Positions 11,931-32,786 of a stretch of DNA of 64,000 nucleotides are shown here, one piece after another. The notes under the pieces are model-generated. The model was not told the origin of the DNA and did not search any database. It saw only the letters and a program-made list of their open reading frames with translations. Source of the stretch: Paenibacillus sp. URB8-2 (GTDB lineage: Bacteria; Bacillota; Bacilli; Paenibacillales; Paenibacillaceae); the NCBI RefSeq assembly GCF_013393385.1, contig NZ_AP023239.1, forward strand, positions 930,001 to 994,000, given 5' to 3'. A program made the position numbers and the translations under genes. Position 1 is the first letter of the stretch, and every line of letters starts with the position of its first letter.

Positions 11931-11935
11931 TGATG

Positions 11936-13560: not shown

Positions 13561-13564
13561 GTAA

Positions 13565-14588: not shown

Positions 14589-14618
14589 TTGACAACTTTC
14601 AGGCAGGAGTGTTACGCT
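14589..14618 (+). promoter_or_regulatory. Promoter of the second EPS block, shared type with 31535
   Basis: TTGACA (14589-14594), an 18-bp spacer and TACGCT (14613-14618). Twelve of the 18 spacer bases, including TTTC, GGCAG and GTG, also match in the same positions at the promoter of the paralogous gene at 31602. Downstream at 14627-14642 lies GTTC-N8-GAAC, a degenerate version of the SinR-type palindrome. Confidence 0.6.
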
Positions 14619-14638
14619 TTACTTGTGTTCGTTAAATA

Positions 14639-14718
14639 GAACAAAAATGATAATTTTTGTTCGCTATGTTCTCGTTCGCAATGTTCTCGTTCGCTATGTT
14701 CTCGTTCGCTATGTTCTC
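14639..14718 (+). repeat. Inverted repeat and four 15-bp tandem repeats in leader
   Basis: GAACAAAAAT (14639) and ATTTTTGTTC (14653) form a perfect 10-bp inverted repeat with a 4-base loop. It is followed by four copies of GTTCGCTATGTTCTC (14659-14718, one base differing in copy two). Each copy contains GTTCTC followed by G, one base short of a SinR half-site. The array ends just before the ribosome site of the next gene and gives the frame an artificial repeat-coded N-terminal extension. Confidence 0.85.
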
Positions 14719-14737
14719 GATAGTAAGGAGATATCCC

Positions 14738-15919
14738 ATGGGAAATCTATTTGCCCTGAAGACGGAAGTTCTGTCAACCGAAATGCGTCTTCTGCTGGCG
14801 CTTCTCGCGGCGGAGAAGACCTGGGACTTGCCGGATCGCTTCCCGGACCTGTTCCGCACGGCGGATTGGGAAGAGTTTGTAAAGCTCGCGCTGCATCACC
14901 GCGTATATCCCAATCTCTATCCCAAGATGAAGAATCTGGGGGAGGATGCAGTGCCCGCCGAAGTGATCGGCTGCCTGTATGCGCACTACAGCCGAAATAC
15001 GTTTCAGATGCTTCATTTAAGCGCTGAAATGGAATTTCTCGACGGAGAGCTGGCCCGGAGAAATATCCGCGCGCTCTTTCTTAAAGGGCCTGTCATTGCC
15101 AAGGATCTGTACGGGGACATCTCCCTGCGGACCTCCTGCGATCTGGATCTCCTGATCCCGATGTCTGAACTGTCCGGTGCAGAATCCATGCTGTCCAGTC
15201 TGGGGTATATCAAGGACGATTATATCCATACCGTTCTGAACGATTGGAAGTGGCGGCATCACCACACGACCTTCACCCATCCGAAAAAAGGCGTCAAGGT
15301 GGAGCTTCATTGGAGGCTGAATCCGGCTCCTTCCGGAGAACCCGATTTCGAGGAGCTGTGGGGACGAAGACGGATCAGCGGGCTGACCAGCCGGCCGGTT
15401 GCCTATTTGGGGAAGGAAGACCTGTTTCTGTTCCTCGTGTCCCATGGGGCGCGGCACGGATGGTCGAGACTGCGGTGGCTGCTGGATATTAAACAGCTGC
15501 TGCTTCAGCGGCCGGATGCCGGCAAGCTGACCGCTCTGCTTCGCAAGTACCGCTACTACCACGTCGGCGGACAGGCGCTAACTCTGGCCCAGGAATTGCT
15601 GGACGCCGAGATCGCAGGTGAGCTTGGGCGAATGGAGCGCGCTCCGAAATCGCGGGCGATGGCGCAGGCGGCGATGTTCTATCTGGAACGGATGGTTAAT
15701 CTGCATTCGCTCCCCGTTCCCGACGATGTGGCCTCCTATCACAAGCGGCATCAATTCGCGCTGTTTGCGCCGGTTCAGAAGCTCGTATTCATCCTGAGCT
15801 TTCTCTTTCCCTACCCGGAGGATGCGGAGACGCTGCCGCTGCCCAAACCGCTGCATTTCTTGTATGTTCCGCTCCGGCCTTTTTTATGGGCCTGGAGGAA
15901 GAGCAAACGCTTTACCTGA
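14738..15919 (+). CDS. Nucleotidyltransferase-fold protein (NTP_transf_5), copy 1
   Basis: A 393-residue protein of the uncharacterised nucleotidyltransferase family often seen in Firmicute lasso-peptide and capsule loci. The N-terminal core carries 'LFLKGPV' and 'LRTSCDLDLLIP', the latter with the metal-binding DxD; then 'VELHWRLNP' and 'SHGARHGWSRLRWLLDI'. ATG at 14738 is chosen because AAGGAG lies nine bases upstream; a longer frame from 14657 would only translate the leader repeats. A close paralog lies at 31602. First gene of the second EPS block. Substrate unknown; a sugar, lipid or peptide could be modified. Confidence 0.75.
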   Translation: MGNLFALKTEVLSTEMRLLLALLAAEKTWDLPDRFPDLFRTADWEEFVKLALHHRVYPNLYPKMKNLGEDAVPAEVIGCLYAHYSRNTFQMLHLSAEMEFLDGELARRNIRALFLKGPVIAKDLYGDISLRTSCDLDLLIPMSELSGAESMLSSLGYIKDDYIHTVLNDWKWRHHHTTFTHPKKGVKVELHWRLNPAPSGEPDFEELWGRRRISGLTSRPVAYLGKEDLFLFLVSHGARHGWSRLRWLLDIKQLLLQRPDAGKLTALLRKYRYYHVGGQALTLAQELLDAEIAGELGRMERAPKSRAMAQAAMFYLERMVNLHSLPVPDDVASYHKRHQFALFAPVQKLVFILSFLFPYPEDAETLPLPKPLHFLYVPLRPFLWAWRKSKRFT

Positions 15920-15960
15920 TTTCGGCTTCGGCCGCTTAACGAAGGGAGATGAGGCTACAG

Positions 15961-16605
15961 ATGATTGGAAAAGTGTTGAAGACGGTCTACAGGCAGTACC
16001 GCGAACGGGGCCTGTTAAGTACGCTGGCCATGAACCTGTCTCATTTCATCGGATTTGTGCGGGGGCTGTTCTATAAGCTGATATATTTCGGCAGCATTTC
16101 ATATGCCCCGTTCTCCATGCAGGGCAACAGCACGATCGAGATCTTCAACAGGAACTCCAGACTGAAGCTCGGCAGCTTCGTTTTTATCCGCAAGAATGTC
16201 AGCATCCGGCTGGATCACGGCGGCGAGCTGAGCCTGGGGGATAAGACGTTCATCAACGATAACTGTACGATCAACTGCGTTCACCGCATCGCGATCGGCG
16301 ATTATGTAAAAATCGCCCCGAATGTCTGCATCAATGATCATGACCATAATTATAAGCCGGATTCGGAAAGCCATCTGCTTCAGGATGAGGTCATTATTGG
16401 CAGCCATGTATGGATCGGGGCGAATACGGTGATTTTGCGGGGAACCGTGATCGGCGACCATTCAGTGGTTGCGGCCGGGAGTGTGGTCAAAGGGACGGTG
16501 CCGCCGTACACCTTGTTCCTTAACAAGCGGGAGAACAGCTATAAAGAAATTGCAGGGGCGAACGTATTCGCTATGGCGCCTGCCGTATCGGGAGGACAGC
16601 CATGA
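15961..16605 (+). CDS. Hexapeptide-repeat acyltransferase
   Basis: A 214-residue acyltransferase of the LbetaH superfamily. After an N-terminal basic helix region, the beta-helix runs from about residue 50, with 'IGDYVKIAPNVCINDHDHNY' (likely acceptor-activating His) and a C-terminal 'GSHVWIGANTVILRGTVIG'. It probably O-acetylates the growing repeat unit. ATG at 15961 is preferred to ATG at 15949, which touches the AAGGGAG site. The stop overlaps the next start (ATGA). Confidence 0.8.
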   Translation: MIGKVLKTVYRQYRERGLLSTLAMNLSHFIGFVRGLFYKLIYFGSISYAPFSMQGNSTIEIFNRNSRLKLGSFVFIRKNVSIRLDHGGELSLGDKTFINDNCTINCVHRIAIGDYVKIAPNVCINDHDHNYKPDSESHLLQDEVIIGSHVWIGANTVILRGTVIGDHSVVAAGSVVKGTVPPYTLFLNKRENSYKEIAGANVFAMAPAVSGGQP

Positions 16606-17798
16606 AGAAGAACATCCTCATATCGGTGTACGATCTGGAAATCGGCGGAATCGAGCGAAGTCTGATCAATATGCTGGAAGCTTTCGATTACGAGCGTTAC
16701 GAGGTCGATCTGCTCGTGTTCCGTCACCAGGGAGACTTTATGGAGATGATTCCCCGGGACGTAAATCTGCTGCCGGAAAAGAAGCCGTATACCGTGCTCC
16801 GAAAGTCGCTTCGAGAGTGTCTTACGGACGGAAGCTATCTCGCCGCTGGCGTGCGGCTGGTCTCGAAGGCCATGGCCCGCATCCGGGCTATGCGAAGAAA
16901 GCTGAACGAAGGTCCCGGCTATATCCAGATGCAGTGGGAGGCCAAGCTGTCTTCCTATTATTTTCCCGGTCTCCGTAAAACGTACGATCTAGTTATCAGC
17001 AACGGCTGGCCGCATGACATCACCCTCAAAAAGGTGAAGGCGCGAAAAAAACTCGCCTGGATTCATACGGATTACAGCAAGCTGGAAATCGACAACAGGA
17101 TGGATCTCAAGGTGTGGCGGGAGTTCGATTACATCGCTTCCATCTCAAACGACTGTACGGCCTCTTTTATAAGTACATATCCGGAGCTCCGCCACAAAAT
17201 TGTCCAGATCGAAAATATTATCTCTCCCGAATTCATCAAGAAGATGTCCTCTGCGGAAGATGCGCCCGAGGTTACGAACACGTTTAACGTTGTGTCTGTC
17301 GGCCGGCTATCCTATGTCAAGGGTTACGACATGGCCGTTCGGGCTTTAAAGACGCTGCACGACCGCGGGATGACCGACATCCGGTGGTATGTGATCGGAT
17401 ATGGAGGCTATGAGCAGGAGCTGAAGGAGCAGATCGCCCGAAACGAACTGGAGGAGAGCTTCATCCTTTTGGGCAAAAAATTAAATCCCTATCCCTATAT
17501 CAAAAGATGCGACGTGTACGTCCAGCCGTCCCGCTATGAAGGGAAAGCCATAACGATTACGGAAGCGCAGATTCTGGGCAAGCCCGTCATCATCACGAAT
17601 TACCCCACGGCGCCAAGCCAGGTCACAGACGGAGTCGACGGAAGAATCTGCGAGCTCAGTCCGGAAGGGATTGCGGAAGCCATTCAAAGCCTGTACCAAA
17701 GCCGCGAGACGAGAAACGTCCTCATTCATAATCTTAAAGATAAAGACTACAGCAACAGCTATGAATTGAACAAGCTCTATGAGCTGATCCCTTCCTAA
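16602..17798 (+). CDS. Glycosyltransferase, family GT4, paralog A
   Basis: A GT-B transferase of 398 residues. The N-terminus 'ILISVYDLEIGGIERSLINM' binds the acceptor side; the C-terminal half has 'SVGRLSYVKGYDMAVRAL' and the EX7E-like 'PSRYEGKAITITEAQILG'. It shares length, layout and motifs with the two genes at 20039 and 21238 but is the most diverged of the three. GGGAGGACAG precedes the ATG. Confidence 0.8.
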   Translation: MKKNILISVYDLEIGGIERSLINMLEAFDYERYEVDLLVFRHQGDFMEMIPRDVNLLPEKKPYTVLRKSLRECLTDGSYLAAGVRLVSKAMARIRAMRRKLNEGPGYIQMQWEAKLSSYYFPGLRKTYDLVISNGWPHDITLKKVKARKKLAWIHTDYSKLEIDNRMDLKVWREFDYIASISNDCTASFISTYPELRHKIVQIENIISPEFIKKMSSAEDAPEVTNTFNVVSVGRLSYVKGYDMAVRALKTLHDRGMTDIRWYVIGYGGYEQELKEQIARNELEESFILLGKKLNPYPYIKRCDVYVQPSRYEGKAITITEAQILGKPVIITNYPTAPSQVTDGVDGRICELSPEGIAEAIQSLYQSRETRNVLIHNLKDKDYSNSYELNKLYELIPS

Positions 17799-17825
17799 AT
17801 GAATGCGAAGGAGCCGCCTAAACCT

Positions 17826-18857
17826 ATGAGTGTTAAAGTGAGCGTTGTTATTCCGGTATATAATGCGGGCTCCCATCTTAGAGAATGCATAGAATCTCTG
17901 ATGAAGCAGACGCTCGGAGAGTGCGAGTTTATTTTTGTGAATGACGGGTCTACGGATGACAGCAGAGCGATTATAGAAGAACATCTTCCGCTTGACCCGA
18001 GAATTCGATTCATCAATCAGGAAAATGAGGGAGTCAGCATCGCGCGCAATGCGGGCCTTAAGGCAGCCAGAGGACAATATATCGGGTTCGTGGATGCCGA
18101 CGACACCGTGGAACCCGATATGTTTGAGGTGTTATATACCGGCGCCGTTCAATGGGGCTGCGATGCCGTCATTTCCGATTTTGAAAGCAGCGCAGGTTCT
18201 CATCGCATCGTTACGAGTTTTCCGCTGCCCCGAAACGTAAAGCTTGACCGGGGATATATCCGCGAGCAGCTGTTGCCCGAATTTATCAAATCGGATGTGC
18301 TCAATTCCGTATGCAACAAGCTGTATAAGGCGGAGGTTGTAAAAGAAAACCGGGTCGCTTTTCCCGCAAAGGTTGCGCTGGGGGAGGACGGATACTTTAA
18401 TGTCCTTTTTTTCAGCGGGGCGGACAGTGCGGTATACATCGATTATTGCGGGTACCACTACAAAGAAACGGCAGGCAGCGCTACCCGGAATATAGCGGAG
18501 AAGGATTATTTCGCCAGGGCGGTTCAGGTTTATGAAGCCCGGCTGCCGCAGATTTATACGGGCCTGCTGGGCGAGAAGGAAATTGCCGAATTGAAATCGG
18601 AGAAGCTGATCAATACGGTGATGTCCATCATTCATCTATATTTTGAGCCTTCCCGGGAGATGGGGCTGCGCCAAAGATACAAGTATATCAGGAACATGAT
18701 CGGCAGCCGAACCGTGAGGGAAGCACTGCCCATCTATTTGGAGAATCATTTCAGCAACTCGGACCGGTACCGGAGAATGCTGCTTGGAATGATCCGAAGG
18801 AAGGTCGTGCCAGGCTTATATTTAGCAACTGCATACAGCAGAATGCGAAACAGATAA
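17826..18857 (+). CDS. Glycosyltransferase, family GT2
   Basis: A GT-A transferase of 343 residues with 'VSVVIPVYNAGSHLRECIES', 'FVNDGSTDDS' and 'FVDADDTVEP' and a C-terminal extension of about 140 residues found in capsule GT2 enzymes. ATG at 17826 is chosen because AAGGAG at 17808 precedes it; the in-frame ATG at 17799 has no ribosome site. It belongs to the second EPS block, 28 bases after the preceding gene. Confidence 0.8.
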   Translation: MSVKVSVVIPVYNAGSHLRECIESLMKQTLGECEFIFVNDGSTDDSRAIIEEHLPLDPRIRFINQENEGVSIARNAGLKAARGQYIGFVDADDTVEPDMFEVLYTGAVQWGCDAVISDFESSAGSHRIVTSFPLPRNVKLDRGYIREQLLPEFIKSDVLNSVCNKLYKAEVVKENRVAFPAKVALGEDGYFNVLFFSGADSAVYIDYCGYHYKETAGSATRNIAEKDYFARAVQVYEARLPQIYTGLLGEKEIAELKSEKLINTVMSIIHLYFEPSREMGLRQRYKYIRNMIGSRTVREALPIYLENHFSNSDRYRRMLLGMIRRKVVPGLYLATAYSRMRNR

Positions 18858-18872
18858 CGAGGAGGCGGAGCC

Positions 18873-20030
18873 ATGAAGATCATGATGTTTTTACATGGCG
18901 GGAGTTTAAACAGGGGATGCGAGGCGATTGTACGCTCCTCCACAACCATCATCAAGGAGAAAATCAATGATTCCAAAGTCTATCTGGCCTCGAACCGGCC
19001 GGAAAGCGACCGGGTGATCACGGCTCTGGACGGGATTTACGACGGGTCTGACAAGTCGATCAGGAAGTACTCGTATGACTGGCTCCTGTCCTCGTTTAAA
19101 GTGAAGTTTTTTAAAGATGAATCCTTTATTTTCGGTAAAATCCATCACAACATTATTAAGCACATCAACGATATGGATGTCTATCTCTCGATTGGCGGGG
19201 ACAACTACTGCTATGGCGAGCAGCCGGGGTGGTATGAAATTGACCGTAGAGTCAAGGAAGAGGGCAAGAAGCTTGTCCTGTGGGGCTGCTCCATCGGAGA
19301 GGAGGATATGACCGCTCTGAAATTGGAGGATCTGAAACGGTTTGATCTGATCCTGGCCCGCGAATCGCTGACCTATGACATGCTGAGGGGCAAGGGACTG
19401 CACAATGTCCGTTTATGCGCTGATCCGGCTTTTACGATGGAAAAAGAAGAGCTGCCCTTGCCCGAAGGCTGGCAGACCGGAAATACGGTCGGCTTCAACT
19501 TCAGCCCGCTGGTGATGAACCGCAACAAGCAATCCGGTACAGCCGCCCGGGAACTGATCCGTTACATTTTGGACACTACAGATATGACGATTGCTCTCAC
19601 TCCCCATGTTATCGAGAACGGGAATAATGATTATGAGGTATTGAAGCAATACTTCGAGGAGTTTAAGCATACCGGCCGGGTGATCCTGCTGCCCGATCAT
19701 CTAACAGCCATCCAGTATAAAGGATATATCGCGAGAATGAGATTTTTCATCGGAGCCCGGACCCATGCCACGATAGCCGCTTATTCCAATTTGGTGCCGA
19801 CCATGGTACTGGGCTACAGCGTGAAGTCGAAGGGCATCTCCAAAGATATTTTCGGCGAGGAGAAGCTGGTGCTCGGGATCGAGGAAATATCCAGCGGAGC
19901 CAAGCTGATTCATAAATTTGACGAAATGCTGAGAGAAGAGGACCGGATCAGGCACACCTTGCAGAAGTCCATTCCCCAAATCAAAGCCATGTCATACAAA
20001 GCCGTCGATTATTTAAAAGAACTGGCGTGA
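18873..20030 (+). CDS. Polysaccharide pyruvyl transferase family protein
   Basis: A 385-residue protein of the WcaK/AmsJ/CsaB type, which adds ketal-linked pyruvate to sugars and so gives EPS negative charge. Visible: 'GGSLNRGCEAIVRS' at the N-terminus, 'LSIGGDNYCYG', 'VLWGCSIGEEDM' and the C-terminal 'FFIGARTHATIAAYS', typical of this GT-B-like family. B. subtilis carries family members at epsI and epsO. GAGGAGGCGGAG precedes the start. A GT-like function cannot be excluded. Confidence 0.8.
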   Translation: MKIMMFLHGGSLNRGCEAIVRSSTTIIKEKINDSKVYLASNRPESDRVITALDGIYDGSDKSIRKYSYDWLLSSFKVKFFKDESFIFGKIHHNIIKHINDMDVYLSIGGDNYCYGEQPGWYEIDRRVKEEGKKLVLWGCSIGEEDMTALKLEDLKRFDLILARESLTYDMLRGKGLHNVRLCADPAFTMEKEELPLPEGWQTGNTVGFNFSPLVMNRNKQSGTAARELIRYILDTTDMTIALTPHVIENGNNDYEVLKQYFEEFKHTGRVILLPDHLTAIQYKGYIARMRFFIGARTHATIAAYSNLVPTMVLGYSVKSKGISKDIFGEEKLVLGIEEISSGAKLIHKFDEMLREEDRIRHTLQKSIPQIKAMSYKAVDYLKELA

Positions 20031-20038
20031 GGCCCGTT

Positions 20039-21241
20039 ATGAAAAAGAACATACTGTTCGTCATGCCCAGTCTGTCCGCCGGCGGAGGAGAAAAAAGCTT
20101 GGTTAATTTGCTCTCCCAGATTGATTTCGAGCAATATGCCGTCGACCTGTTCCTCTTCAACCACGAAGGGATTTTTATGGAGTTCCTGCCCAAAGAGGTA
20201 AATGTGCTGCCGCTTCCGGAGAGCTTCAAGCTGTTCAATCTGCCGCTTGCCCGTTCCGTCAAGGAGCTGGTGCTCCGGCAAAAGCTCCCTCTGGCATACA
20301 GCCGGGCGATGTTTGCTTTCAAGAATGCCACCTCGCAGAGCCACGCGGTTACCGAGCAATACAGCTGGAAGTATATTTCAAGGTCGGTGGAGCCCTTGGA
20401 GAAACGATACGATGTTGCTATCGGCTTCCTTGAGAAGACATCTACTTATTTCTGCGTCGATAAAGTGAGCGCTGTCAAAAAGATCGGCTGGGTTCACATC
20501 GATTACGACAAACTGGGCATGGACCCGGAGTTTGACAAAGGGTATTTTCAGCGGCTGGACCACATTGTCACTGTGTCGGAGGAATGCGCCGACATTCTCG
20601 GCAGACGGTTTCCGGAGCAGCGGCACAAAATTGAATTGATCTACAATATTATTTCCCCGAGAATCATCCGGCAAATGGCCGATCAGGCCAAAGGTGACGT
20701 CTACGGACGGTCCGGGAATGAAATCGTGATTCTATCCATTGGCCGCCTGCATCCCCAGAAGGGCTATGAATTGGCGATTGCGGCTTGCAAGCTCCTGGTT
20801 ACCCAAGGATACGATATCCGCTGGAATATTATTGGAAGCGGAGAGGAGAAGGCCAAGCTGACAAGGCTCATCCGGGAGAACGGTCTGGAGAAGAATTTCA
20901 AGCTGCTGGGGCTTATGACCAATCCGTACTCCTATATCAAGCATGCCGACTTCTATGTGCAGACCTCCCGGTTCGAGGGCAAATCCATTGCCATTGATGA
21001 GGCGAAAATCCTGAATAAACCGATTCTCGTCACCAATTTCAGCACCGCCAAGGATCAGATCAGACATGAGCATAACGGCTTGATTGCCACAATGAATCCG
21101 GAGGATATCGCCCGCGGAATCGTGCGGCTGATTGAGGACCCGGAGCTGAGAACCCGGCTGTCCCGCAATCTTTCCTGGGAGAAGCTGGGCACGGAGGAAG
21201 AGATCGATAAACTTTATAAGCTTGTAGGTGAGGCGCAATGA
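20039..21241 (+). CDS. Glycosyltransferase, family GT4, paralog B
   Basis: A 400-residue GT-B enzyme: 'ILFVMPSLSAGGGEKSLVNL', 'LSIGRLHPQKGYELAIAACK' and 'TSRFEGKSIAIDEAKIL'. It is closely similar to the next gene across its whole length ('KPILVTNFSTAKDQI' here, 'KPIVVTNFSTAKEQI' there), so the pair looks like a tandem duplication. ATG at 20039 follows GTGAGG; GTG at 20027 is part of that site. The stop overlaps the next start. Confidence 0.8.
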   Translation: MKKNILFVMPSLSAGGGEKSLVNLLSQIDFEQYAVDLFLFNHEGIFMEFLPKEVNVLPLPESFKLFNLPLARSVKELVLRQKLPLAYSRAMFAFKNATSQSHAVTEQYSWKYISRSVEPLEKRYDVAIGFLEKTSTYFCVDKVSAVKKIGWVHIDYDKLGMDPEFDKGYFQRLDHIVTVSEECADILGRRFPEQRHKIELIYNIISPRIIRQMADQAKGDVYGRSGNEIVILSIGRLHPQKGYELAIAACKLLVTQGYDIRWNIIGSGEEKAKLTRLIRENGLEKNFKLLGLMTNPYSYIKHADFYVQTSRFEGKSIAIDEAKILNKPILVTNFSTAKDQIRHEHNGLIATMNPEDIARGIVRLIEDPELRTRLSRNLSWEKLGTEEEIDKLYKLVGEAQ

Positions 21242-22437
21242 AGAAGAAGCTGCTGTTCATTATGAATAATCTTCACTGCGGCGGCGCGGAGAAGTCCCTG
21301 ATTTCTCTGCTGCAGACATTGGATTATTCCCGCTACGAGGTCGACCTGTTTCTGTTCAGGCATGAGGGCTTGTTCATGTCCCAGATTCCGGGGTCCGTGA
21401 ATTTGATGAAGCCGCCTCCGGATAATCTTTATTTTAATATGTCGATCAAAACGGCGTTCGCCGACTGCTTCCGTAAAGGCAAGCTCAAGGTGGCCCTTGC
21501 CCGGCTGTTCGCGCAGTACATCTTTGTAACCGAGAAGAATGAAGCCCGCTCCGAGCAGCGGGCGTGGAAATATGTTTCCGCTTCGATCCCCCGGATTGGC
21601 GGCAAATATGATGCGGCCATCGGTTTCCTTGAGAAGAATCCGATCTATTGCGTCATCGACAAGGTGGATGCGAAGGTCAAGATCGGCTGGATTCATACCA
21701 ATTACGCCAGCCTGCGGATGGATGCGGCGATCGACAGGCCTTTTTTTGACCGGCTGGATTATATCGTTACCGTCTCTGACGAATGCGCCAGCGCGCTGCA
21801 CAAGGCGTTTAAGAATCAAACTAGCAAGATCAAGGTGATCCATAATATCGTTTCACCATCCATTATCCGGCGGATGTCCGATCTGGCAATGCCGAAGCCG
21901 CCCGCTTCCGGCAAGGATTGTACGAATATTACAACCGTGGCGCGGCTCAGTCCAGTGAAGGGAATCGACATTGCGATAGAAGCCTGCCGGATTCTGGTGG
22001 AGCAAGGATACCGAATCCGCTGGAATGTTCTCGGTTACGGGACCGATCAGGAATTGCAGGAATGCACCCGGCTGATCCGGCAATACGGTCTGGAAGAATG
22101 CTTCAAGCTGCTGGGAACGGTCGATAATCCCTATCCTTACTTGAAGTCGGCAGACATTTACGTCCAGCCCTCGCGGTTCGAGGGGAAATCCATTGCCGTC
22201 GATGAAGCCAAAATCATGGCGAAACCGATCGTCGTCACCAATTTCAGCACCGCCAAGGAACAGATTGAACATCGGCTAAACGGCTGGATCGCCGGGATGA
22301 ATCCGGAAGAGCTTGCCGAGGGAATACGGAAAGTCATCGAGGACGTACCGCTGAGGACCCGTTGGGCGGAACGTCTGTCCCGGGAGAAGCTGGGGACGGA
22401 AGCGGAAGTGAATAAACTTTATGAATTGATCTCGTGA
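21238..22437 (+). CDS. Glycosyltransferase, family GT4, paralog C
   Basis: A 399-residue GT-B enzyme and the tandem copy of the preceding gene: 'LLFIMNNLHCGGAEKSLISL', 'VARLSPVKGIDIAIEACRIL' and 'PSRFEGKSIAVDEAKIM'. Acceptor-side residues differ between the copies more than the donor-side C-terminal half, as expected if the same sugar donor is added at a different position. Four-base overlap with the preceding stop. Confidence 0.8.
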   Translation: MKKKLLFIMNNLHCGGAEKSLISLLQTLDYSRYEVDLFLFRHEGLFMSQIPGSVNLMKPPPDNLYFNMSIKTAFADCFRKGKLKVALARLFAQYIFVTEKNEARSEQRAWKYVSASIPRIGGKYDAAIGFLEKNPIYCVIDKVDAKVKIGWIHTNYASLRMDAAIDRPFFDRLDYIVTVSDECASALHKAFKNQTSKIKVIHNIVSPSIIRRMSDLAMPKPPASGKDCTNITTVARLSPVKGIDIAIEACRILVEQGYRIRWNVLGYGTDQELQECTRLIRQYGLEECFKLLGTVDNPYPYLKSADIYVQPSRFEGKSIAVDEAKIMAKPIVVTNFSTAKEQIEHRLNGWIAGMNPEELAEGIRKVIEDVPLRTRWAERLSREKLGTEAEVNKLYELIS

Positions 22438-22449
22438 AGGGGTGAGCCC

Positions 22450-23013
22450 ATGTTCGAGAGAGTTAAGAAAGCCATCGCATTTCGGCTGGGGAGAATCAGC
22501 GCGGAGGAATTGAACATCAATGCATGTATCAACCAGGGAATGACGGTCGGACGGGGCTGCCACGGGTTAGGCGCCGCCACAATCGACTACGCGCACTGTT
22601 GGCTGATCGAAATCGGCGATAATGTCACTTTCGCTCCGCAGGTGTATTTATTGGCTCACGACGCAAGCACCAAGCGGCATCTGGATTATACGAAGATAGC
22701 GAAGATCGTCATTGAAGACGGGGCCTTTATCGGAGCAAGAGCTTTGATAATGCCGGGCGTAACCGTAGGAAAGAACTCAATCGTGGCCGCAGGCAGCGTC
22801 GTGACCAAATCCGTGCCGGAGGGCATGGTCGTTGCAGGCAATCCTGCAAGAGTTCTGTCCACAACCGAGGCGTATATTCAAAAGCATAAGGAGAAGATGG
22901 AACAGTCGGACTTGTACGACGAGACTTGGACGATCGGCCGCCGGATTTCGCCGGATATGTGCAGACAAATGTCGGATCAATTGATGGACGGCTCCGTCGG
23001 CTATGTGAAGTGA
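22450..23013 (+). CDS. Hexapeptide-repeat acetyltransferase (WbbJ/maa type)
   Basis: A 187-residue LbetaH acetyltransferase. Signature stretches are 'AQVYLLAHD'-like 'PQVYLLAHDASTKRH' (catalytic His), 'IEDGAFIGARALIMPGVTVG' and 'AAGSVVTKSVPEGMVVAGNP', as in maltose/galactoside acetyltransferases. Probably decorates the EPS repeat unit with acetate, as the second acyltransferase of this block. GAAGGGGTGAG precedes the start. Confidence 0.85.
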   Translation: MFERVKKAIAFRLGRISAEELNINACINQGMTVGRGCHGLGAATIDYAHCWLIEIGDNVTFAPQVYLLAHDASTKRHLDYTKIAKIVIEDGAFIGARALIMPGVTVGKNSIVAAGSVVTKSVPEGMVVAGNPARVLSTTEAYIQKHKEKMEQSDLYDETWTIGRRISPDMCRQMSDQLMDGSVGYVK

Positions 23014-23053
23014 GCCTTGAGCCTAAATACGATCCCGAAAGGATTTGCCCGAG

Positions 23054-24256
23054 ATGGTTATACAGCTTCTGCTTTATCTCATTCTTGCTATTGTTGTCAT
23101 CGCCGTTGCCATTGATCTTATCCCTGTCTGGAAAAGCTGGTTTGGGCGGATACATATCGGCCGCTATAGCGACAAGCAGGTCTGGAGCCGCGCTCTGACC
23201 GTGAGGGGCTTATTCTGGCTTAGCAGAATGCCCGCGATTAAAGTCACCGATAATACCCGCCTCATCGTGCTGGATATGCTCAGGGGGAATTATACGAAAA
23301 GCGCGATCCAGCATTGGCAGGAGGCCGCCCTGCTGCTCGGCCTCAGCGAATATTTGCGGCATAACGACGATCCTGCCGCCAGGCAGAGCATCATGAAATT
23401 CCTGGATTCGAAACTGGACGGCGGCGGCCGATGGAAAGAACAGCCGAAGCATGTGGACACCGCTATTCTTGCCTACGCGATCATGAGCCTTGATTTTATC
23501 GATTCTGACCGGTATGAGCCGGCAGTGCACGCCATCTGGGAACTGATCCGGGAGCATCTGGGCGGCGACGGGACCGTAAGCTACCGCCAATCGATGGAAG
23601 GGTACCGCTATGTGGACACGGTCGGTTTCATCTGCCCTTTCCTTGTGGCCTACGGCTTAAAGTACGATCAGCCGGAGTGCGTTGATCTGGCGGTTAAGCA
23701 GATTGCCGAATACGAGCAATACGGGATGCTTGACTCCCATCATATCCCGGTGCATGCCTACAAAGTAGAGAACCGTATCCCGCTTGGGCTGTACGGATGG
23801 GGCCGGGGGCTCGGCTGGTTCGCCATCGGACTCATCGACGCCTGGAGCCAGCTGCCCCCGGATCACCGGCACAAGTCCGCTCTTGAACGCAGCGTAGAGA
23901 GGTATGCCCGGGCGGTCATGCGCTTCCAGCATCCGGACGGCAGCTGGAAATGGACGGTTACCCGCGGCGAATGCCGGCCGGACTCTTCAGCGGCGGCTAC
24001 CCTGTCCTGGTTTCTCATGGGGGCTTCCGCCATCGAACGCATTTCTGCGGATTGCCGTTTATCGGCAGAAACCGCCATGCAGTACCTTATGGGGGTGACG
24101 AGACGCAGCGGAGCCGTCGATTTCTCGCAAGGAGACACGAAAGATATCGGCGTCTACTCGATGCTGTTCGATGTTCTGCCCTTTACCCAAGGCTATGCGA
24201 TCCGCACGGTCAACCGGTATCTGAACACTTTCCATGAGAAGGGGGAGCCGAGATGA
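23054..24256 (+). CDS. Membrane-anchored GH88/GH105-like glycoside hydrolase
   Basis: About 400 residues. An N-terminal hydrophobic segment (roughly residues 3-22) anchors it in the membrane; the rest is an alpha/alpha barrel of the unsaturated-uronyl hydrolase type. 'YRYVDTVGFICPF' carries the expected catalytic Asp, and 'PLGLYGWGRGLGWFAIGLID' matches the conserved GRGxGW region. The family removes unsaturated uronic acids left by lyases. In an EPS operon it could trim or turn over the polymer. The start is uncertain (TTG 23045 or ATG 23054). Its stop overlaps the next start. Confidence 0.75.
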   Translation: MVIQLLLYLILAIVVIAVAIDLIPVWKSWFGRIHIGRYSDKQVWSRALTVRGLFWLSRMPAIKVTDNTRLIVLDMLRGNYTKSAIQHWQEAALLLGLSEYLRHNDDPAARQSIMKFLDSKLDGGGRWKEQPKHVDTAILAYAIMSLDFIDSDRYEPAVHAIWELIREHLGGDGTVSYRQSMEGYRYVDTVGFICPFLVAYGLKYDQPECVDLAVKQIAEYEQYGMLDSHHIPVHAYKVENRIPLGLYGWGRGLGWFAIGLIDAWSQLPPDHRHKSALERSVERYARAVMRFQHPDGSWKWTVTRGECRPDSSAAATLSWFLMGASAIERISADCRLSAETAMQYLMGVTRRSGAVDFSQGDTKDIGVYSMLFDVLPFTQGYAIRTVNRYLNTFHEKGEPR

Positions 24257-25134
24257 AAATAACCGTCTTTACCCCGACCTATAACCGGGGGTATATCCTC
24301 CCCGAGCTGTATCAATCGCTGCAGGCCCAGACCTTCGCCGATTTCGAATGGCTGGTGATCGACGACGGCTCGAACGACCGAACGCATGAGCTGTTTGACA
24401 CCTGGCTGCGAGAGCAGAACCGGTTCTCTGTCCGCTATTACAGGGTGGAGAACGGGGGGAAGCACCGGGCGATCAACAAGGGGGTGGATCTGGCGGAAGG
24501 CGAGCTGTTCTTTATCGTCGATTCGGACGACCGCCTGACGCCGGATGCGCTGGAGAGCATCATGAAATGGGAAGAGGGGCTTACGGACAAGAGCCGTTTT
24601 TGTGGCGTCGCCGGAAACCGGGGAGCGAATGAACAGCATGTTTTGGGGACCACTTTCGAGGGCGAATATGTGGACGCCACCTCGCTGGAAAGAACCCGGC
24701 TCGGCATTACCGGCGATAAGGCCGAGGTTTTTTATACAGAAATTTTAAGAAATTACAAGTTCGACGAAATCGAGGGCGAAAAATTCATTACGGAATCGAC
24801 GGTGTGGGACCGCATGGCCTACGACGGTCTGAAGCTGAGGTGGTTTAATCAAACCATTTATATTTGCGACTACCTCGAAGATGGGTTGACCCATAATATG
24901 AAACGGATTTTTTCAGAAAATCCGCAAGGAACGGCTCTTTATATCAAACAGCAGATTAAGCATTATGACTATGATTTGCGGGGAAGGCTTTCCAACTACA
25001 ACTTGTACTACGATTTTGTGGGAGGCAGAACCGGTCTGAGAAAGGCGGCCCGCTATTTGGAAATACATCCTTTGACTTTATTCACCGCCACATGTCTGGT
25101 GCGGCTGAGGAAGCTTATGCTGCAGCGGCCCTAG
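24253..25134 (+). CDS. Glycosyltransferase, family GT2
   Basis: A 293-residue GT-A transferase with 'ITVFTPTYNRGYILPELYQS', 'VIDDGSNDRT' and 'IVDSDDRLTPDALESI'. It is the same subtype as the gene at 8537. AAGGGGGAG precedes the start, which overlaps the previous stop as ATGA. Confidence 0.8.
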   Translation: MKITVFTPTYNRGYILPELYQSLQAQTFADFEWLVIDDGSNDRTHELFDTWLREQNRFSVRYYRVENGGKHRAINKGVDLAEGELFFIVDSDDRLTPDALESIMKWEEGLTDKSRFCGVAGNRGANEQHVLGTTFEGEYVDATSLERTRLGITGDKAEVFYTEILRNYKFDEIEGEKFITESTVWDRMAYDGLKLRWFNQTIYICDYLEDGLTHNMKRIFSENPQGTALYIKQQIKHYDYDLRGRLSNYNLYYDFVGGRTGLRKAARYLEIHPLTLFTATCLVRLRKLMLQRP

Positions 25135-25172
25135 CTCGTTCAAGCACACTGAAAAGGATATAGGGGATGGCC

Positions 25173-26720
25173 ATGAGAGTAAAAAACTCCATCATCAACA
25201 TAACGGCGGGCATCGGCAATCAACTGGTAATAACCCTGCTGAGCTTTGTATCCAGAACCGTCTTCATTAACAGCCTCGGCATCGAGTATCTGGGCGTGAA
25301 TGGACTGTTCACGAATATTCTCGCGATGCTGACGCTGGCGGAGGCGGGAATCGGAACAAGTATTATGTACAGTCTATATAAGCCGATTGCGGAGAACGAT
25401 TACGAGAAGATCAACAAGCTGATGCGGCTGTACCGCAGCGCCTATCTGGTCATCGCACTGGTCGTCACGGCGCTGGGCCTGTCCCTTCTCCCTTTTCTTG
25501 ATGAAATCGTCAAAAACACAAGCATACATCATCTATATCTTATCTATCTAATATTCCTGCTCAATACGGTGACGCCTTATCTCTTCTCTTATAAAAATTC
25601 ATTCCTGAATGTGAACCAGAAGAGCTATATCGTGACTGTGGCGTATTCCGCATCCTCCATTCTTTCAACCAGTCTCAAAATAGGCATCCTGTATTTTACT
25701 GCGAATTATATCCTGTTCCTGATCATCGACAGCATCCTGACTATCGTTACCTCGGTATTTCTGACCATGACCGCCAACCGGAAATATCCCTATCTGAGGC
25801 AAAAGGCCGCAGGCAAGCTCGACGCGGAAACCAAAGGCGGAATCATCAAAAATGTCAAAGCGATCGTCATCCAGAACATCGGCAGCTATCTGGTGCTCGG
25901 GACGGAGAATATTCTGATTTCCACCTTTGTCAGCATCGCGGCCGTGGGCCTGTATTCCAACTATAAAATGCTGATCGATATTGCCAGAACCTTTATCAAT
26001 CAGGTGTTCAGCAATTTGTACCACAGTGTCGGGAATCTCGTATCCAGTGAGAGCGGGGAGAAGATATACAGTGTCTATAAAGTGATGCTGCTGCTCAGTT
26101 TCTGGCTGTATTCCTTGCTCACGATCCTCCTGTATCTCCTGATCGAACCGTTTATTGCGCTCTGGATCGGCGGAAAGTTCCTGATGACCGGCGGGGTTCT
26201 GCTCGTCCTGCTGCTGCTGTTCTATGAACGGGGAATGCGCAATCCAATCAGCACAGTGAAGACGACGGCCGGTATTTTTCATGAAGACCGCTTCGTTCCG
26301 CTGGCCCAGGCCGTCCTCGGACTTGGCGTTTCCATTATTCTTGTGCGGCAGATCGGCATTGCCGGCGTCTTTATCGGCTCCCTGTTCGGCACCCTGGCCA
26401 TGCCCTTCTGGACGACGCCCTATCTGGTCTATAAAAAGGTGTTCCATCTGCCCGTCGCCGACTATTACCTGAAATATGCCTATTATTCATTGATTGGGAT
26501 AAGCGCTTTTTTTGCGGCGTACTATACAAGCGGTTTTATCCATGCGGGGAATTTTTCACAACTGATAGTGAAAGGAATTGTCGCGTTTGCAACCGTCAAC
26601 CTGATCTACTTCGCGGTATTTCATCGGAAGGAAGAATTTAAATACCTTCAGGGCATTACCAAGATTATGTTTGGCAAAGTCACCTTAAAGTTCAAGCCCC
26701 ATTTGAAGAACGGAGGATGA
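25173..26720 (+). CDS. Wzx-type polysaccharide flippase (EpsK role)
   Basis: An integral membrane protein of 515 residues with about 12-14 hydrophobic segments, of the MOP superfamily. The N-terminus 'ITAGIGNQLVITLLSFVSRT' and 'LGIEYLGVNGLFTNIL' are typical of Firmicute polysaccharide transporters that flip lipid-linked repeat units. It is the only flippase candidate in the locus and pairs with the EpsG-like polymerase. ATG at 25173 is chosen over 25167, which abuts the AGGGG site. Confidence 0.85.
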   Translation: MRVKNSIINITAGIGNQLVITLLSFVSRTVFINSLGIEYLGVNGLFTNILAMLTLAEAGIGTSIMYSLYKPIAENDYEKINKLMRLYRSAYLVIALVVTALGLSLLPFLDEIVKNTSIHHLYLIYLIFLLNTVTPYLFSYKNSFLNVNQKSYIVTVAYSASSILSTSLKIGILYFTANYILFLIIDSILTIVTSVFLTMTANRKYPYLRQKAAGKLDAETKGGIIKNVKAIVIQNIGSYLVLGTENILISTFVSIAAVGLYSNYKMLIDIARTFINQVFSNLYHSVGNLVSSESGEKIYSVYKVMLLLSFWLYSLLTILLYLLIEPFIALWIGGKFLMTGGVLLVLLLLFYERGMRNPISTVKTTAGIFHEDRFVPLAQAVLGLGVSIILVRQIGIAGVFIGSLFGTLAMPFWTTPYLVYKKVFHLPVADYYLKYAYYSLIGISAFFAAYYTSGFIHAGNFSQLIVKGIVAFATVNLIYFAVFHRKEEFKYLQGITKIMFGKVTLKFKPHLKNGG

Positions 26721-26724
26721 TGGC

Positions 26725-27759
26725 ATGGCTATTCTAATTACCGGAGGCGCCGGCTATATCGGCAGCCATACTGCGGTGGAACTGCTCGAAGCGGGATACG
26801 AAATTGTGATTGTCGATAATTACGCCAACAGCCATCCCGAGGCAATCCGGCGGATCACGGAGATCACGGGCCGGACATTTCCATTCTATGAGCTCGATTT
26901 ATTGGACAGTGAAGGGCTGGACGACGTATTTGCCCGGCACCCTATCGAGGCCGTGATTCATTTTGCGGGGCTTAAAGCGGTGGGGGAGTCGGTGGAGAAC
27001 CCGCTCAAGTACTATCATACGAATCTGCTGAGCACCCTGACGCTGTGCAAGGTGATGCAGAAATACGAGGTGTTCCGCATTGTCTTCAGCTCATCGGCGA
27101 CCGTATACGGCGCTCCGGAGTCTGTGCCGATTACGGAGGATTCTCCTGTCGGCGCCACCAATCCTTATGGACGCACCAAAGAAATGATCGAACACATTCT
27201 GCGTGATGTTGCGGTGTCCGATTCCCGCTGGGCCATTTCGATCCTGCGCTATTTTAACCCGATAGGAGCCCACAAGAGCGGGCGGATCGGCGAGAATCCG
27301 AACGGCATTCCGAACAATTTGCTGCCCTATATTTCCCAGGTAGCCGTCGGCAAGCTGGCCACGCTCAGCGTATACGGGAATGACTATCCGACAGTCGACG
27401 GCACGGGCGTAAGAGATTATATTCATGTCGTGGATCTGGCGCATGGCCATTTGAAGGCGCTGGAGCGGATTATGGGGCGCACCTCTGTGGATGTGTACAA
27501 TCTGGGAACGGGCCGAGGCTTAAGCGTGCTGGAGATGGTGAGGGCCTTCGAGAAGGTGTCGGGCCAGGCCATACCTTACCGGGTTGCAGAACGAAGAGCG
27601 GGCGATATCGCCGTCTGCTACGCAGATACGTCCAGGGCGAATGAAGAATTGCAATGGCAGGCTGTCCGCGGAATTGAAGAGATGTGCGAAGATACGTGGC
27701 GGTGGCAATCGGTGAATCCCGGAGGCTATGCGGAGAGTGAACTGGAAAAAGCGAAGTAA
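26725..27759 (+). CDS. galE: UDP-glucose 4-epimerase
   Basis: A 344-residue extended short-chain dehydrogenase: NAD-binding 'TGGAGYIGSHTAVELL' at the N-terminus, 'SSSATVYG' with the catalytic Ser/Thr, and the catalytic Tyr in 'NPYGRTKEMIE'; C-terminal 'GTGVRDYIHVVDLA' is the GalE signature. It interconverts UDP-Glc/UDP-Gal (or the N-acetyl forms) to supply sugar donors. Last gene of the EPS locus; GGAGGATG precedes the start and a terminator follows. Confidence 0.95.
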   Translation: MAILITGGAGYIGSHTAVELLEAGYEIVIVDNYANSHPEAIRRITEITGRTFPFYELDLLDSEGLDDVFARHPIEAVIHFAGLKAVGESVENPLKYYHTNLLSTLTLCKVMQKYEVFRIVFSSSATVYGAPESVPITEDSPVGATNPYGRTKEMIEHILRDVAVSDSRWAISILRYFNPIGAHKSGRIGENPNGIPNNLLPYISQVAVGKLATLSVYGNDYPTVDGTGVRDYIHVVDLAHGHLKALERIMGRTSVDVYNLGTGRGLSVLEMVRAFEKVSGQAIPYRVAERRAGDIAVCYADTSRANEELQWQAVRGIEEMCEDTWRWQSVNPGGYAESELEKAK

Positions 27760-27837: not shown

Positions 27838-28167
27838 CTACCGTCGTTCCATCCTCCATTTGTTGTACTCCAGGAAGTCGCGAAACTCTCTTTTGCTGAT
27901 GCCGGAGTGCATTGCTTCCTTAATTAAGTCGTTCCATTCCATATCCGTCTGCTCGGCGTCTTCCTTCCGCTGATCCGAATGCAGGAATTCTTCTACGGTT
28001 ATGCCCAGAACGGAGCCGACTTTTTCCAGAAACTGAATGGAGGGATTCTTCTGGATTCCGCGTTCGATCGAGCTTAAATAAGATTTGGCAACTCCGGCTC
28101 TTTCGGACAATTCCGTAAGGGAATAGTTCTTCTTTTTACGAAGCTGTTGTATCCGTTTACCGATCAT
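27838..28167 (-). CDS. sinR: SinR-like biofilm repressor (XRE family)
   Basis: A 109-residue DNA-binding protein. The N-terminal helix-turn-helix domain ('IGKRIQQLRKKKNYSLTELS', 'AGVAKSYLSSIERGIQ') is nearly superposable on remembered B. subtilis SinR. The C-terminal 'EWNDLIKEAMHSGISKREF' and 'FLEYNKWR' are the SinI/SinR dimerisation domain. SinR represses eps genes at GTTCTYT sites; such sites lie in the EPS promoter and before this gene's own operon. No SinI-like antagonist gene is visible. Third gene of a leftward operon, 16 bases after the B2-like gene, with GGAGGTC before the ATG. Confidence 0.92.
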   Translation of the reverse strand: MIGKRIQQLRKKKNYSLTELSERAGVAKSYLSSIERGIQKNPSIQFLEKVGSVLGITVEEFLHSDQRKEDAEQTDMEWNDLIKEAMHSGISKREFRDFLEYNKWRMERR

Positions 28168-28183
28168 AGCTGACCTCCGTTAC

Positions 28184-28642
28184 TTAGCTGGTACCCGCAG
28201 ATTTGGCGAATTTGTCGACAACAACGAACTGATCCATGACTTCCGCTCCGGAAATATAATAAGGACCGCTGCGAAGCCAAGCATGGGCTATCAGATTTCC
28301 GTCCTTGTCCTTGGCCGTTCCTAAATAAAGGGTGCTGCCGATGCCCCTTCTCTCCAGCATTTTCATACCCGCTATAGCCCTTACCAGGCATTTGCTGTCC
28401 CACGGTGTATATTTGCTGATCGTATTAATGGAATTGGCAATATGCCTCATGGAGGGAGTATGTTCTGAATCGCTGTCCCGATCCGTCTCTTGTCCTCTTT
28501 CACCGAGCGAAGGCGCCACTTTGGAGAACTTGTAGAAGAGGAGGGTGCGGGCCCATCCCAATAGCACAAAGGCTTCCAAATAAAACAAAAGGGTAGTCTT
28601 GTCCAATGTGAACAACAACCGGAGTTTGCTTACGAGCTTCAT
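28184..28642 (-). CDS. Lasso-peptide B2-type transglutaminase-like protease
   Basis: A 152-residue protein of the transglutaminase-like cysteine protease family whose members (B2) cut leader peptides from lasso and related precursors. The N-terminal third is hydrophobic ('LLFYLEAFVLLGWARTLLFY'); the catalytic Cys is C85 in 'WDSKCLVRA' and the His is H120 in 'LIAHAWLRSG'. The third catalytic residue is not evident, as in some relatives. It overlaps the PqqD-like gene by four bases (ATGA), as usual for B1-B2 pairs. No precursor peptide or macrolactam synthetase is found nearby, so the substrate is unknown. Confidence 0.8.
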   Translation of the reverse strand: MKLVSKLRLLFTLDKTTLLFYLEAFVLLGWARTLLFYKFSKVAPSLGERGQETDRDSDSEHTPSMRHIANSINTISKYTPWDSKCLVRAIAGMKMLERRGIGSTLYLGTAKDKDGNLIAHAWLRSGPYYISGAEVMDQFVVVDKFAKSAGTS

Positions 28643-28941
28643 TCGGCATCAGCCACACGGATCAGATCTTCTTTCAGCAGATGCTGTAAAAAAGGAATGA
28701 CGTCCTGCTCGCAAATGTCAGCGTCAATTTCATAGATTTGCTGAAGAGATTCTATAATTTCCTTTACAGACCGGGGAGTGCTGATTGCGCTCCAAATATC
28801 TCCTCCAACCTGTCCCAGGTTAAAATACTTTCCTTTTTGTACGCTCAGCATCACCTTTTCGCCATCCATATCGCTGACAATGTTTCCTTCGCATTGAACA
28901 AGAACGGTATCTATCGATAAAATCTTTGGCTGTTTCATCAT
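28639..28941 (-). CDS. PqqD-like RRE protein (lasso B1 type)
   Basis: A 100-residue PqqD-family protein, the RiPP recognition element that grips a leader peptide for the partner protease. 'GKYFNLGQVGGDIWSAISTP' followed by 'VKEIIESLQQIYEID' and a C-terminal helix 'VIPFLQHLLKEDLIRV' are characteristic. AAGGAG lies ten bases before the first of two adjacent ATGs. First gene of the leftward operon with the B2-like protease and sinR; a SinR-type palindrome lies 65-80 bases upstream. Confidence 0.85.
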   Translation of the reverse strand: MMKQPKILSIDTVLVQCEGNIVSDMDGEKVMLSVQKGKYFNLGQVGGDIWSAISTPRSVKEIIESLQQIYEIDADICEQDVIPFLQHLLKEDLIRVADAE

Positions 28942-29005
28942 TGATAATCCACTCCTTAATAGGAAATTTGGGAGGATAAATCAAAGGAATTCAATACGAT
29001 TCCAT

Positions 29006-29021
29006 GTTCTTTATAGAGAAC
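29006..29021. promoter_or_regulatory. SinR-type palindrome before the RRE-protease-sinR operon
   Basis: GTTCTTTATAGAGAAC is an inverted repeat whose two halves read GTTCTTT and GTTCTCT, both exact matches to the SinR half-site GTTCTYT. It differs from the EPS operator at 1803 by only two bases. A possible minus-strand promoter upstream (TTGACT, 17 bp, TAACTT, around 29041-29066) has a weak -10; the site would then lie just after the transcription start. This suggests autoregulation. Confidence 0.75.
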
Positions 29022-31601: not shown

Positions 31602-32786
31602 ATGGATGAACGGAATGTGATAGATCACGGGATTTTATCTAAGGAACTATTGCTTCTTCTTGCTCTGCTTGCCGCGGACAAAGTTGACGAGGTGGCAGAC
31701 CGGCAGTCGGAGATGTTCGCGGACATCGATTGGAAGCAGTTCATGCGGCTTGCCATGCATCATCGCGTGTATCCTTTTCTGTATCCCAAGCTTAGCCGCA
31801 TGCGTGAAGGGCGGATTCCTTCAGAGCTCGTCCAATGGCTGAAGCAAGAATACTGTAAAAATACCGTTCAGATGCTCCACCTCAGCGGCGAAATGGGCAG
31901 GCTGGCCGATAAGCTGGCTGACGCGGGCATCCCGGCCCTTTTCCTGAAAGGGCCGGTGCTGGCGCAGGATTTGTACGGCGATATCTCGCTCCGCACGTCC
32001 CGCGACCTCGATTTTATCGTGCCCATTGGCAAACTGGCCGAAGCGGAAGCCCTGCTAGTCAGGCTCGGCTATGTAGAGGAAGAAGAATTCGAGACTATTC
32101 TGGGAGATTGGAAATGGAGGCAGCATCATAAGACGTTCCACCACCCCGGCAACAATATTAAGGCCGAGGTCCACTGGAGACTGAATCCGGCGCCTTCCAG
32201 AGAGCCGGACTTCGATGAACTGTGGGAGCGGAGGGGGACCAGCAACCTCCTGGGCCGGAATATTCATTATTTGGGACCGGAGGATTTGTTTCTGTTCTTG
32301 TCCGCGCACGGAGCCAGGCACGGCTGGTCAAGATTGAGATGGCTGCTGGATATCAAGCAACTGCTGCTGAAGCAGCCGGACCCCGGCACATTGACCCGGC
32401 TTCTTCATCGGTATGGCTATGATGATGTCGGAGGACAGGCCCTTCTGTTGGCCGCCGATTTATTGAAGGCGCCGATCGATCCCGGCCTGTCCCGCTTGGC
32501 GGAGAGGCCAAAAGCCCGCCGCCTGGCCCGGCTTGCCATGTTCTACGTGGGGCGAATGGTCAATCTGCATAATCCGCCGCTGCCGCCTGAAGTAGAGCGG
32601 CATTACCGGTATTATCAGCCGGCGATTTTGTCGTGGGGGCAGCAGCTTCTATACGCGCTCGGATTTCTGCATCCTTATGCGGCGGATGCGAAGACGCTGC
32701 CGCTGCCGAGGCGCCTGCACTTTCTTTACTTCGCTTTGCGGCCCTTTTTATGGACATGGAGAAAAGCATTTGGCGAGGAGAAATGA
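31602..32786 (+). CDS. Nucleotidyltransferase-fold protein (NTP_transf_5), copy 2
   Basis: A 394-residue paralog of the EPS-locus gene at 14738, similar over the full length: 'MHHRVYPFLYPKL', 'LFLKGPV', 'LRTSRDLDFIVP' with the DxD, 'EVHWRLNPAPS' and 'AHGARHGWSRLRWLLDI'. It stands alone between htpG and an ABC transporter, with its own promoter and a terminator. Family members accompany lasso-peptide genes in Firmicutes; here the B1/B2-like pair is 2.7 kb away. AGAAGGAGAAT precedes the ATG. Substrate unknown. Confidence 0.75.
   Translation: MDERNVIDHGILSKELLLLLALLAADKVDEVADRQSEMFADIDWKQFMRLAMHHRVYPFLYPKLSRMREGRIPSELVQWLKQEYCKNTVQMLHLSGEMGRLADKLADAGIPALFLKGPVLAQDLYGDISLRTSRDLDFIVPIGKLAEAEALLVRLGYVEEEEFETILGDWKWRQHHKTFHHPGNNIKAEVHWRLNPAPSREPDFDELWERRGTSNLLGRNIHYLGPEDLFLFLSAHGARHGWSRLRWLLDIKQLLLKQPDPGTLTRLLHRYGYDDVGGQALLLAADLLKAPIDPGLSRLAERPKARRLARLAMFYVGRMVNLHNPPLPPEVERHYRYYQPAILSWGQQLLYALGFLHPYAADAKTLPLPRRLHFLYFALRPFLWTWRKAFGEEK

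Follow-up and report, generated by a model that had tools for sequence, protein, structure and literature searches.

Putative SinR control of a divergent paeninodin-like lasso peptide cluster and its neighbouring exopolysaccharide genes in Paenibacillus

Introduction

Paeninodin-like lasso peptide clusters are located inside polysaccharide loci, and in Paenibacillus alginolyticus DSM 5050 the expression of pbaB1 and of an exopolysaccharide (EPS) gene rises synchronously in the stationary phase (Popov et al. 2026, PMC13381572). The same paper states that the role of these peptides is unknown and presents a part in biofilms as an untested speculation; none of the pba or lpp products was detected there in native cells or medium. 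The term SinR is absent from its main text, and full-text searches of the open-access literature yielded no paper on SinR together with lasso peptides. A second family from the same source, the linear polyphosphorylated peptides (LPP), likewise has polysaccharide loci nearby and shares with the locus described below an NTP transferase, a discrete RiPP recognition element (RRE) and, judged by best matches, an HprK-like kinase (PMC13381572).

The SinR repressor of Bacillus subtilis binds an inverted repeat with the same 2-bp spacing as the repeat considered in this study, with a Kd of 300 nM (Colledge et al., PMC3163267). Its operators include those of eps and tapA-sipW-tasA (PMC3163267, PMC5733473), and its recognition helix carries Ser at position 33, where SlrR has Lys (PMC3163267).

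Here, we analysed a 64,000-nucleotide stretch of the genome of Paenibacillus sp. URB8-2 (positions 930001-994000 of contig C1 of genome G000, the genome of the window), hereafter referred to as the window. An original prediction, made from the letters of the window, had noted a SinR gene in one operon with a lasso-type RRE and a B2 protease.

Results

The B1-B2-sinR operon

Three leftward genes are packed together on the minus strand: a SinR-type repressor with a helix-turn-helix and the SinI/SinR two-helix dimerisation domain (27838..28167, 109 aa), which we named SinR-L for the lasso-linked paralogue; B2, the lasso leader peptidase of the Transglut_core3 type (28184..28642, 152 aa); and B1, a discrete PqqD-like RRE (28639..28941, 100 aa). 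The B1 and B2 genes overlap by 4 bases and the gap between B2 and SinR-L is 16 bases, as given in the original prediction. B1 matched the NCBIfam model lasso_PqqD_Bac (NF033536) with 128.4 bits against a cut-off of 80, as a discrete Bacillota lasso-type RRE, and B2 matched lasso_biosyn_B2 (NF033537) with 97.8 bits against a cut-off of 33. The conserved Cys and His of the peptidase are present in B2 as Cys85 and His120, which are invariant in an alignment of 15 sequences and which we take to be the catalytic residues. The Pfam domains Transglut_core3, PqqD, HTH_3 and SinI dimerisation were all found above cut-off in the three window proteins. Residues 1-107 of SinR-L align collinearly with B. 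subtilis SinR (1b0n) at an E value of 3.5e-37, giving the full SinR architecture, and Ser33 of the recognition helix is retained in the alignment. Searches of the one-contig, 5.58-Mb genome gave a single match each for B1, B2 and the precursor A described below.

Between B1 and htpG, we observed a perfect inverted repeat, TTAGCACTC-N9-GAGTGCTAA (29142-29168), approximately 55 bp before the htpG start. We take this repeat to be a CIRCE-like element, and its position suggests that htpG may be under HrcA control.

The remaining lasso genes and the EPS cluster

The original prediction had stated that no precursor or macrolactam synthetase was in reach of the B1/B2 pair. This holds inside the window. 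Beyond its left edge, however, at a distance of 5.5-10.6 kb, G000:C1:919382-924525 contains the genes C, K, A and D, with the EPS cluster between them and B1-B2; C was missed because it begins 10.6 kb outside the window. An orphan status of the B1/B2 pair was ruled out by genome-wide searches for Asn_synthase, B1, B2 and A. The Asn_synthase-like cyclase gene C (C1:919382-921349) is followed by the HprK-like kinase gene K (C1:921346-922263) and by A (C1:922461-922595), which encodes a 44-aa precursor with a WEKP leader motif; the ABC exporter gene D (C1:922804-924525) is convergent to C-K-A. Assignment of these genes to curated families was less firm than for B1 and B2. C had the lasso cyclase model NF033535 as its best match, with 356.6 bits, below the cut-off of 525, and was above cut-off for PF00733; the sole match of A was the PadeA-family model NF033524, with 13.2 bits, below the cut-off of 27; and the best matches of K were HprK-related, with scores below the curated cut-offs. 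The WxKP leader, a Gly, an Asp eight residues on and a final Ser are constant in eight precursors (that of the window genome and those of seven relatives), a pattern that would fit a Gly1-Asp9 macrolactam whose C terminus carries a phosphorylation site. The cleavage site and the 9-residue ring of A are predictions from this pattern, and with them leader position -2 would be Glu, instead of the Thr that is usual at this position of lasso leaders (PMC10368454).

The EPS cluster (1861..27759, plus strand) occupies the space between D and the SLH-domain surface protein on one side and SinR-B2-B1 on the other. It encodes Wzz, a ParA/tyrosine-kinase-like protein, Polysacc_synt_2, glycosyltransferases, Bac_transf, DegT, a pyruvyltransferase, GH88 and an NAD epimerase/GalE-like protein; a flippase-like protein, without a family match, was named by eye. 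An NTP_transf_5 protein (PF14907; NTP1, 14657..15919, plus strand, 190.8 bits) is also encoded here and is a candidate tailoring enzyme by analogy with the paeninodin and LPP clusters (PMC13381572). A second NTP_transf_5 copy (31602..32786, plus strand, 198.5 bits) is 57% identical to the first, and its relatives adjoin lasso clusters of the genus.

Several further features of this region were recorded. Translated, a 15-bp repeat, GTTCGCTATGTTCTC, at 14659-14719 would give FAMFS repeats where NTP1 appears to start, and the true start is therefore probably further in. A tandem-repeat array of 26/77 bp lies between two genes at 13565-13794. The start of the EPS cluster is flanked by two related-looking beta-helix-type proteins (positions 15229-19275 of L038 and 17-1669 of the window), one of which has SLH domains, and a SinR box precedes the first of them. 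Directly behind another SinR box lies the gene of a 108-aa protein (L038 14761-15087, i.e. G000:C1:924761-925087) that has no Pfam match, looks secreted by eye and is a candidate matrix or surface protein.

Comparison with described clusters

Like the paeninodin-like clusters, including pba of P. alginolyticus, the locus contains a B1 RRE, B2, an Asn-synthetase-like C, a putative HprK-like K, D and an NTP transferase, together with a WxxP leader and polysaccharide surroundings. Unlike them, it is split by EPS genes, has sinR in the B operon, has C and A that fall below the NCBIfam cut-offs, and has Glu rather than Thr predicted at position -2. In contrast to LPP clusters, the locus has a cyclase-like C and the peptidase B2, and its leader carries WxxP instead of YxxP, so the pathway looks like that of a lasso peptide; the LPP pathway was set aside on these grounds. 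Judged by its gene content, the three-gene unit is the predicted B1-B2-sinR operon of a divergent paeninodin-like lasso cluster, in which the EPS cluster splits C-K-A and D from B1-B2-sinR.

Conservation of the layout in relatives

We identified a B2 relative in 72 and a SinR relative in 64 of 100 same-genus genomes. Fourteen of these SinRs share at least 74% identity with SinR-L, and all 14 are encoded 0.35-2.32 kb from B2. The conserved PqqD-B2-sinR order that the original prediction had proposed to look for was thus borne out, with B2 no more than 2.4 kb from SinR-L in every same-genus genome holding SinR-L (14/14). The window layout (C-K-A and D, surface proteins and the EPS cluster, SinR-B2-B1, htpG) was also found in G045, G049, G054, G018 and G025. 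A suspected loss of the lasso genes in G019, based on 60 kb of sequence, was ruled out when C was found 5 kb further left.

Proximity of sinR to the EPS genes raises another reading, namely, that sinR is a gene of the EPS cluster whose position next to B1-B2 is due to chance. In 12 of the 14 genomes with SinR-L, sinR does adjoin galE/EPS genes. In the two sister genomes G090 and G051, however, an uninterrupted C, K, A converges on D, followed by SinR, B2, B1 and then htpG; here sinR stands between B2 and D, no EPS genes are found at the locus, and no relative of the EPS pyruvyltransferase was detected at E 1e-20. SinR-L thus accompanies the lasso genes in genomes in which the EPS probe has no match. 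In G097, G098 and G075, which have another lasso cluster type, SinR is located behind D with an EPS cluster beyond. The lasso cyclase gene of G098 (G098:C10:4170-6110) contains one in-frame TAA and may be broken or missequenced.

SinR-L, core SinR and SinI

A second, core SinR, with 52% identity, is encoded elsewhere in the window genome, and a 50-aa SinI homologue (C1:393889-394041) is convergent with it. This homologue scored 36 bits against the Pfam cut-off of 31.4, and 32.8 bits against the NCBIfam equivalog cut-off of 80. The statement in the original prediction that SinI could not be found is thus true of the window but not of the genome. Compared with the B. subtilis SinR/SinI system (PMC3163267, PMC5733473), the locus has a full-length SinR homologue, the same operator and spacing and an EPS target; it differs in the extra lasso-linked paralogue, in the inclusion of the lasso cluster among the predicted targets and in the position of sinI, which accompanies the core sinR instead.

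In a tree of 58 SinR rows (53 of them different, since some genes were entered twice via two sources), 34 of 36 lasso-linked SinRs clustered together (97/87), and the 19 proteins of the main core group formed a separate cluster (100/99). The SinRs of one Ammoniphilus and one Bacillus locus fell outside the lasso-linked group; long branches are flagged in the tree. Apart from that of the window, 35 lasso-linked rows were compared at position 33 of the recognition helix: 34 have Ser there and one has Thr, whereas the core SinRs sampled within the genus have Asn (19/21) or Arg (2/21). SinR-L and core SinR may differ in affinity. A standard box is nevertheless found before the G067 sipW operon that adjoins the core sinR gene, despite the Asn/Arg33 type of the sampled core SinRs.

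SinR-type boxes in the window genome

We searched for the known binding sequence of SinR, the inverted repeat GTTCTYT-N2-ARAGAAC, by sequence match; this repeat is hereafter called the box. An exact box, GTTCTTTATAGAGAAC, is located at 29006..29021, 64 bp 5' of the B1 start; the 5.58-Mb genome has just one other exact site. With one mismatch, a box at 1803..1818 lies 5' of the first EPS gene and exactly fills the 17-bp spacer of a promoter-like TTGACA(1796-1801)-N17-TAAAAT(1819-1824); its 16-mer was also found 5' of Wzz in G045, G049, G054, G018 and G019. A box with two mismatches (14627..14642) precedes the NTP1 ORF; when stretches from 12 other genomes were scanned, six contained its 16-mer. 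Two-mismatch boxes were likewise detected before C and before an AMP-binding (acyl-CoA-ligase-like) gene, and the box before A has three mismatches. By sequence match, the paired GTTCTYT operator is thus present at the putative target promoters.

Twelve boxes with at most one mismatch, including the two exact ones, were found in the whole genome, and four of the 12 fall between C and B1, a distance of 40.6 kb (binomial 1.3e-6). Five of the 12, both exact ones included, lie within 46 kb, an interval whose edge is the outermost site and was chosen post hoc. These five are located before B1, before the first EPS gene, in the intergenic region between D and the secreted-protein ORF, before the SLH protein and, at the left edge, at the start of a malic-enzyme ORF. 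At three mismatches, the whole window was weakly enriched (16 matches against a mean of 7.7, with 4 of 100 shuffles reaching 16), and the 20 kb to its left contained 12 matches against 2.4 (0 of 200 shuffles).

SinR-type boxes across the genus and related families

Across 100 same-genus genomes, we identified 50 exact boxes, compared with 13 for a reversed control pattern. Of these 50, 22 have a lasso B2 and 16 a core SinR at a distance of no more than 5 kb; three are in the wider lasso/EPS locus and nine elsewhere. In G067, the one core-SinR case inspected, two exact boxes stand directly before an operon of an unnamed ORF, SipW (237.9 bits, cut-off 190) and two TasA-like proteins (SipW-type signal peptides, scores below the TasA cut-off), next to the core sinR; the first ORF of this operon gave no match to a TapA model. 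The classical SinR target has this layout, and the G067 operon thus provides a positive control for the box.

We then considered the best 80 of 285 B2 loci in named genomes, which include Paenibacillus, Cohnella, Bacillus, Neobacillus, Cytobacillus, Lederbergia and Alkalihalobacillus; one locus (L091) comes from a metagenome-assembled genome labelled Thermincola, and the other named loci carry Bacillales names. These 80 loci (1.56 Mb) contain 165 boxes with at most one mismatch, 54 of them exact, against 2, 2 and 1 (none exact) in three Markov resamplings. C is present in 75 of these best 80 of 285 loci, as the stretches examined for L085-L087, L097 and L104 contain no C. Sixty of the 75 have a box with at most one mismatch in the 400 bp 5' of C, rising to 68 at two mismatches, while random windows gave a mean of 2.9 and a maximum of 6 of 75 (31 draws). 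Among the 24 loci with Wzz from this set of 80, 18 have a box in the 400 bp 5' of that gene. Without an assumed motif, the top de novo 8-mer 5' of C was GTTCTTTA, detected in 66 of 93 regions against 4.9 expected. The information content of the box was derived from rows preselected at one mismatch or fewer, and only the spacer and flanking columns are unaffected by this preselection. Fifteen of the 75 loci with C (again among the best 80 of 285) had no box at one mismatch or fewer, and seven of these had none even at three; among the box-less loci, the stretch of L100 is incomplete and L145 has boxes further upstream.

The presence of boxes was compared with that of SinR in 49 genomes (50 of the best 80 of 285 loci were chosen, L133 being left out). 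All 35 genomes with a box at one mismatch or fewer have a SinR at E 1e-31 or better, and 12 of the 14 genomes without a near-exact box have a SinR too. The two genomes lacking a convincing SinR (L091, best E 6e-9; L160, none) have no box at three mismatches or fewer within 400 bp of C. Within the genus, lasso loci without a local sinR in SinR-bearing genomes have a box (one mismatch or fewer) in 18 of 37 cases, with 37 of 39 such genomes counted and G056 and G089 outside that count. The corresponding figure for SinR-negative genomes is 1 of 19, a contrast confounded with lineage, since in 18 of the 19 the C query had no match and the cluster type differs. In G093, where a search at E 1e-10 gave no SinR, the lasso locus (L182) has an exact box before C.

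In the P. alginolyticus DSM 5050 locus (L128), C (6563) is preceded by boxes at 6409 and 6497. Two more, at 13527 and 13589, stand in front of a run of glycosyltransferase genes, in which one protein shares 75% identity with the pyruvyltransferase of the window. The eps gene measured in that strain was not located in L128; judging from the order of locus tags, it is probably on the other side, next to the LPP genes.

Discussion

The operator sequences described above make control of both lasso and EPS genes by SinR likely. Boxes stand before the lasso operons and before the EPS operon, and SinR therefore most likely represses peptide and matrix together, which suggests that one biofilm switch may govern both. 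Several results weigh against this reading: in the window genome the boxes before C, NTP1 and A have two or three mismatches, enrichment over the whole window is weak at three mismatches, near-exact boxes are missing from part of the loci with C and from 12 SinR-bearing genomes, fewer than half of the counted same-genus loci without a local sinR have one, G093 has an exact box but gave no SinR match, and A and C fall below the curated lasso cut-offs. We propose that SinR-L is most likely an autoregulated repressor that would bind the boxes before B1-B2-sinR, before C, in the intergenic region between D and the secreted-protein gene, before the SLH surface protein and before the EPS operon. Once SinR is antagonised, presumably by the SinI encoded elsewhere, lasso peptide and polysaccharide would be switched on together. 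B1 would then present the WxxP leader of precursor A and B2 would cut it off, C would close the Gly1-Asp9 ring, K would phosphorylate the C-terminal Ser, the NTP_transf_5 protein may decorate the phosphate, and D would export the product.

The main alternative concerns which SinR acts at the boxes. Core SinR, instead of SinR-L, may be the binder, with SinR-L as a redundant or modulating partner, for instance, through mixed oligomers, such as those formed by SlrR in B. subtilis. This reading accounts for the boxes at loci without a local sinR, given that the 35 box-positive genomes of that kind searched have a SinR elsewhere, and for the exact boxes at the core SinR locus of G067. The B. subtilis-type Ser33 kept by the lasso-linked SinRs but replaced in the core proteins, and the retention of SinR-L with lasso genes in genomes where the EPS probe has no match, argue against it, and we regard it as possible but the less likely arrangement. 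The chance neighbourhood of sinR and B1-B2 is very improbable in view of the EPS-free loci of G090 and G051 and of the boxes before lasso operons in many genera. Very improbable, too, is the original model, in which B1/B2 process a peptide or protein that antagonises SinR in place of SinI: B1-B2 and sinR do adjoin on one strand and are co-conserved, but a WxxP precursor, a cyclase-like gene, a kinase and an exporter are nearby, and the SinI homologue beside the core SinR leaves a replacement of SinI unsupported.

The original prediction was right to place a lasso RRE/peptidase pair and a biofilm repressor together and so to link peptide maturation to the control of EPS, but the evidence favours the reverse direction, the boxes pointing from SinR to the lasso and EPS genes. 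A return path can be imagined for our preferred model, SinR-L as the repressor of both gene sets: the SinR regulon of Bacillales would include paeninodin-type lasso peptides, made at the biofilm stage, and in the lineage with SinR-L the peptide, once processed or exported, would relieve SinR-L, closing a self-timed matrix switch of peptide, EPS and repressor. We consider this circuit improbable. Our analysis found nothing showing an action of the peptide, B1 or B2 on SinR.

The conserved SinR operator before lasso clusters of Bacillaceae and Paenibacillaceae gives the speculation on a part of these peptides in biofilms a mechanism that is directly testable. Lifting SinR repression could switch such clusters on, and would thus offer a practical route to their products.
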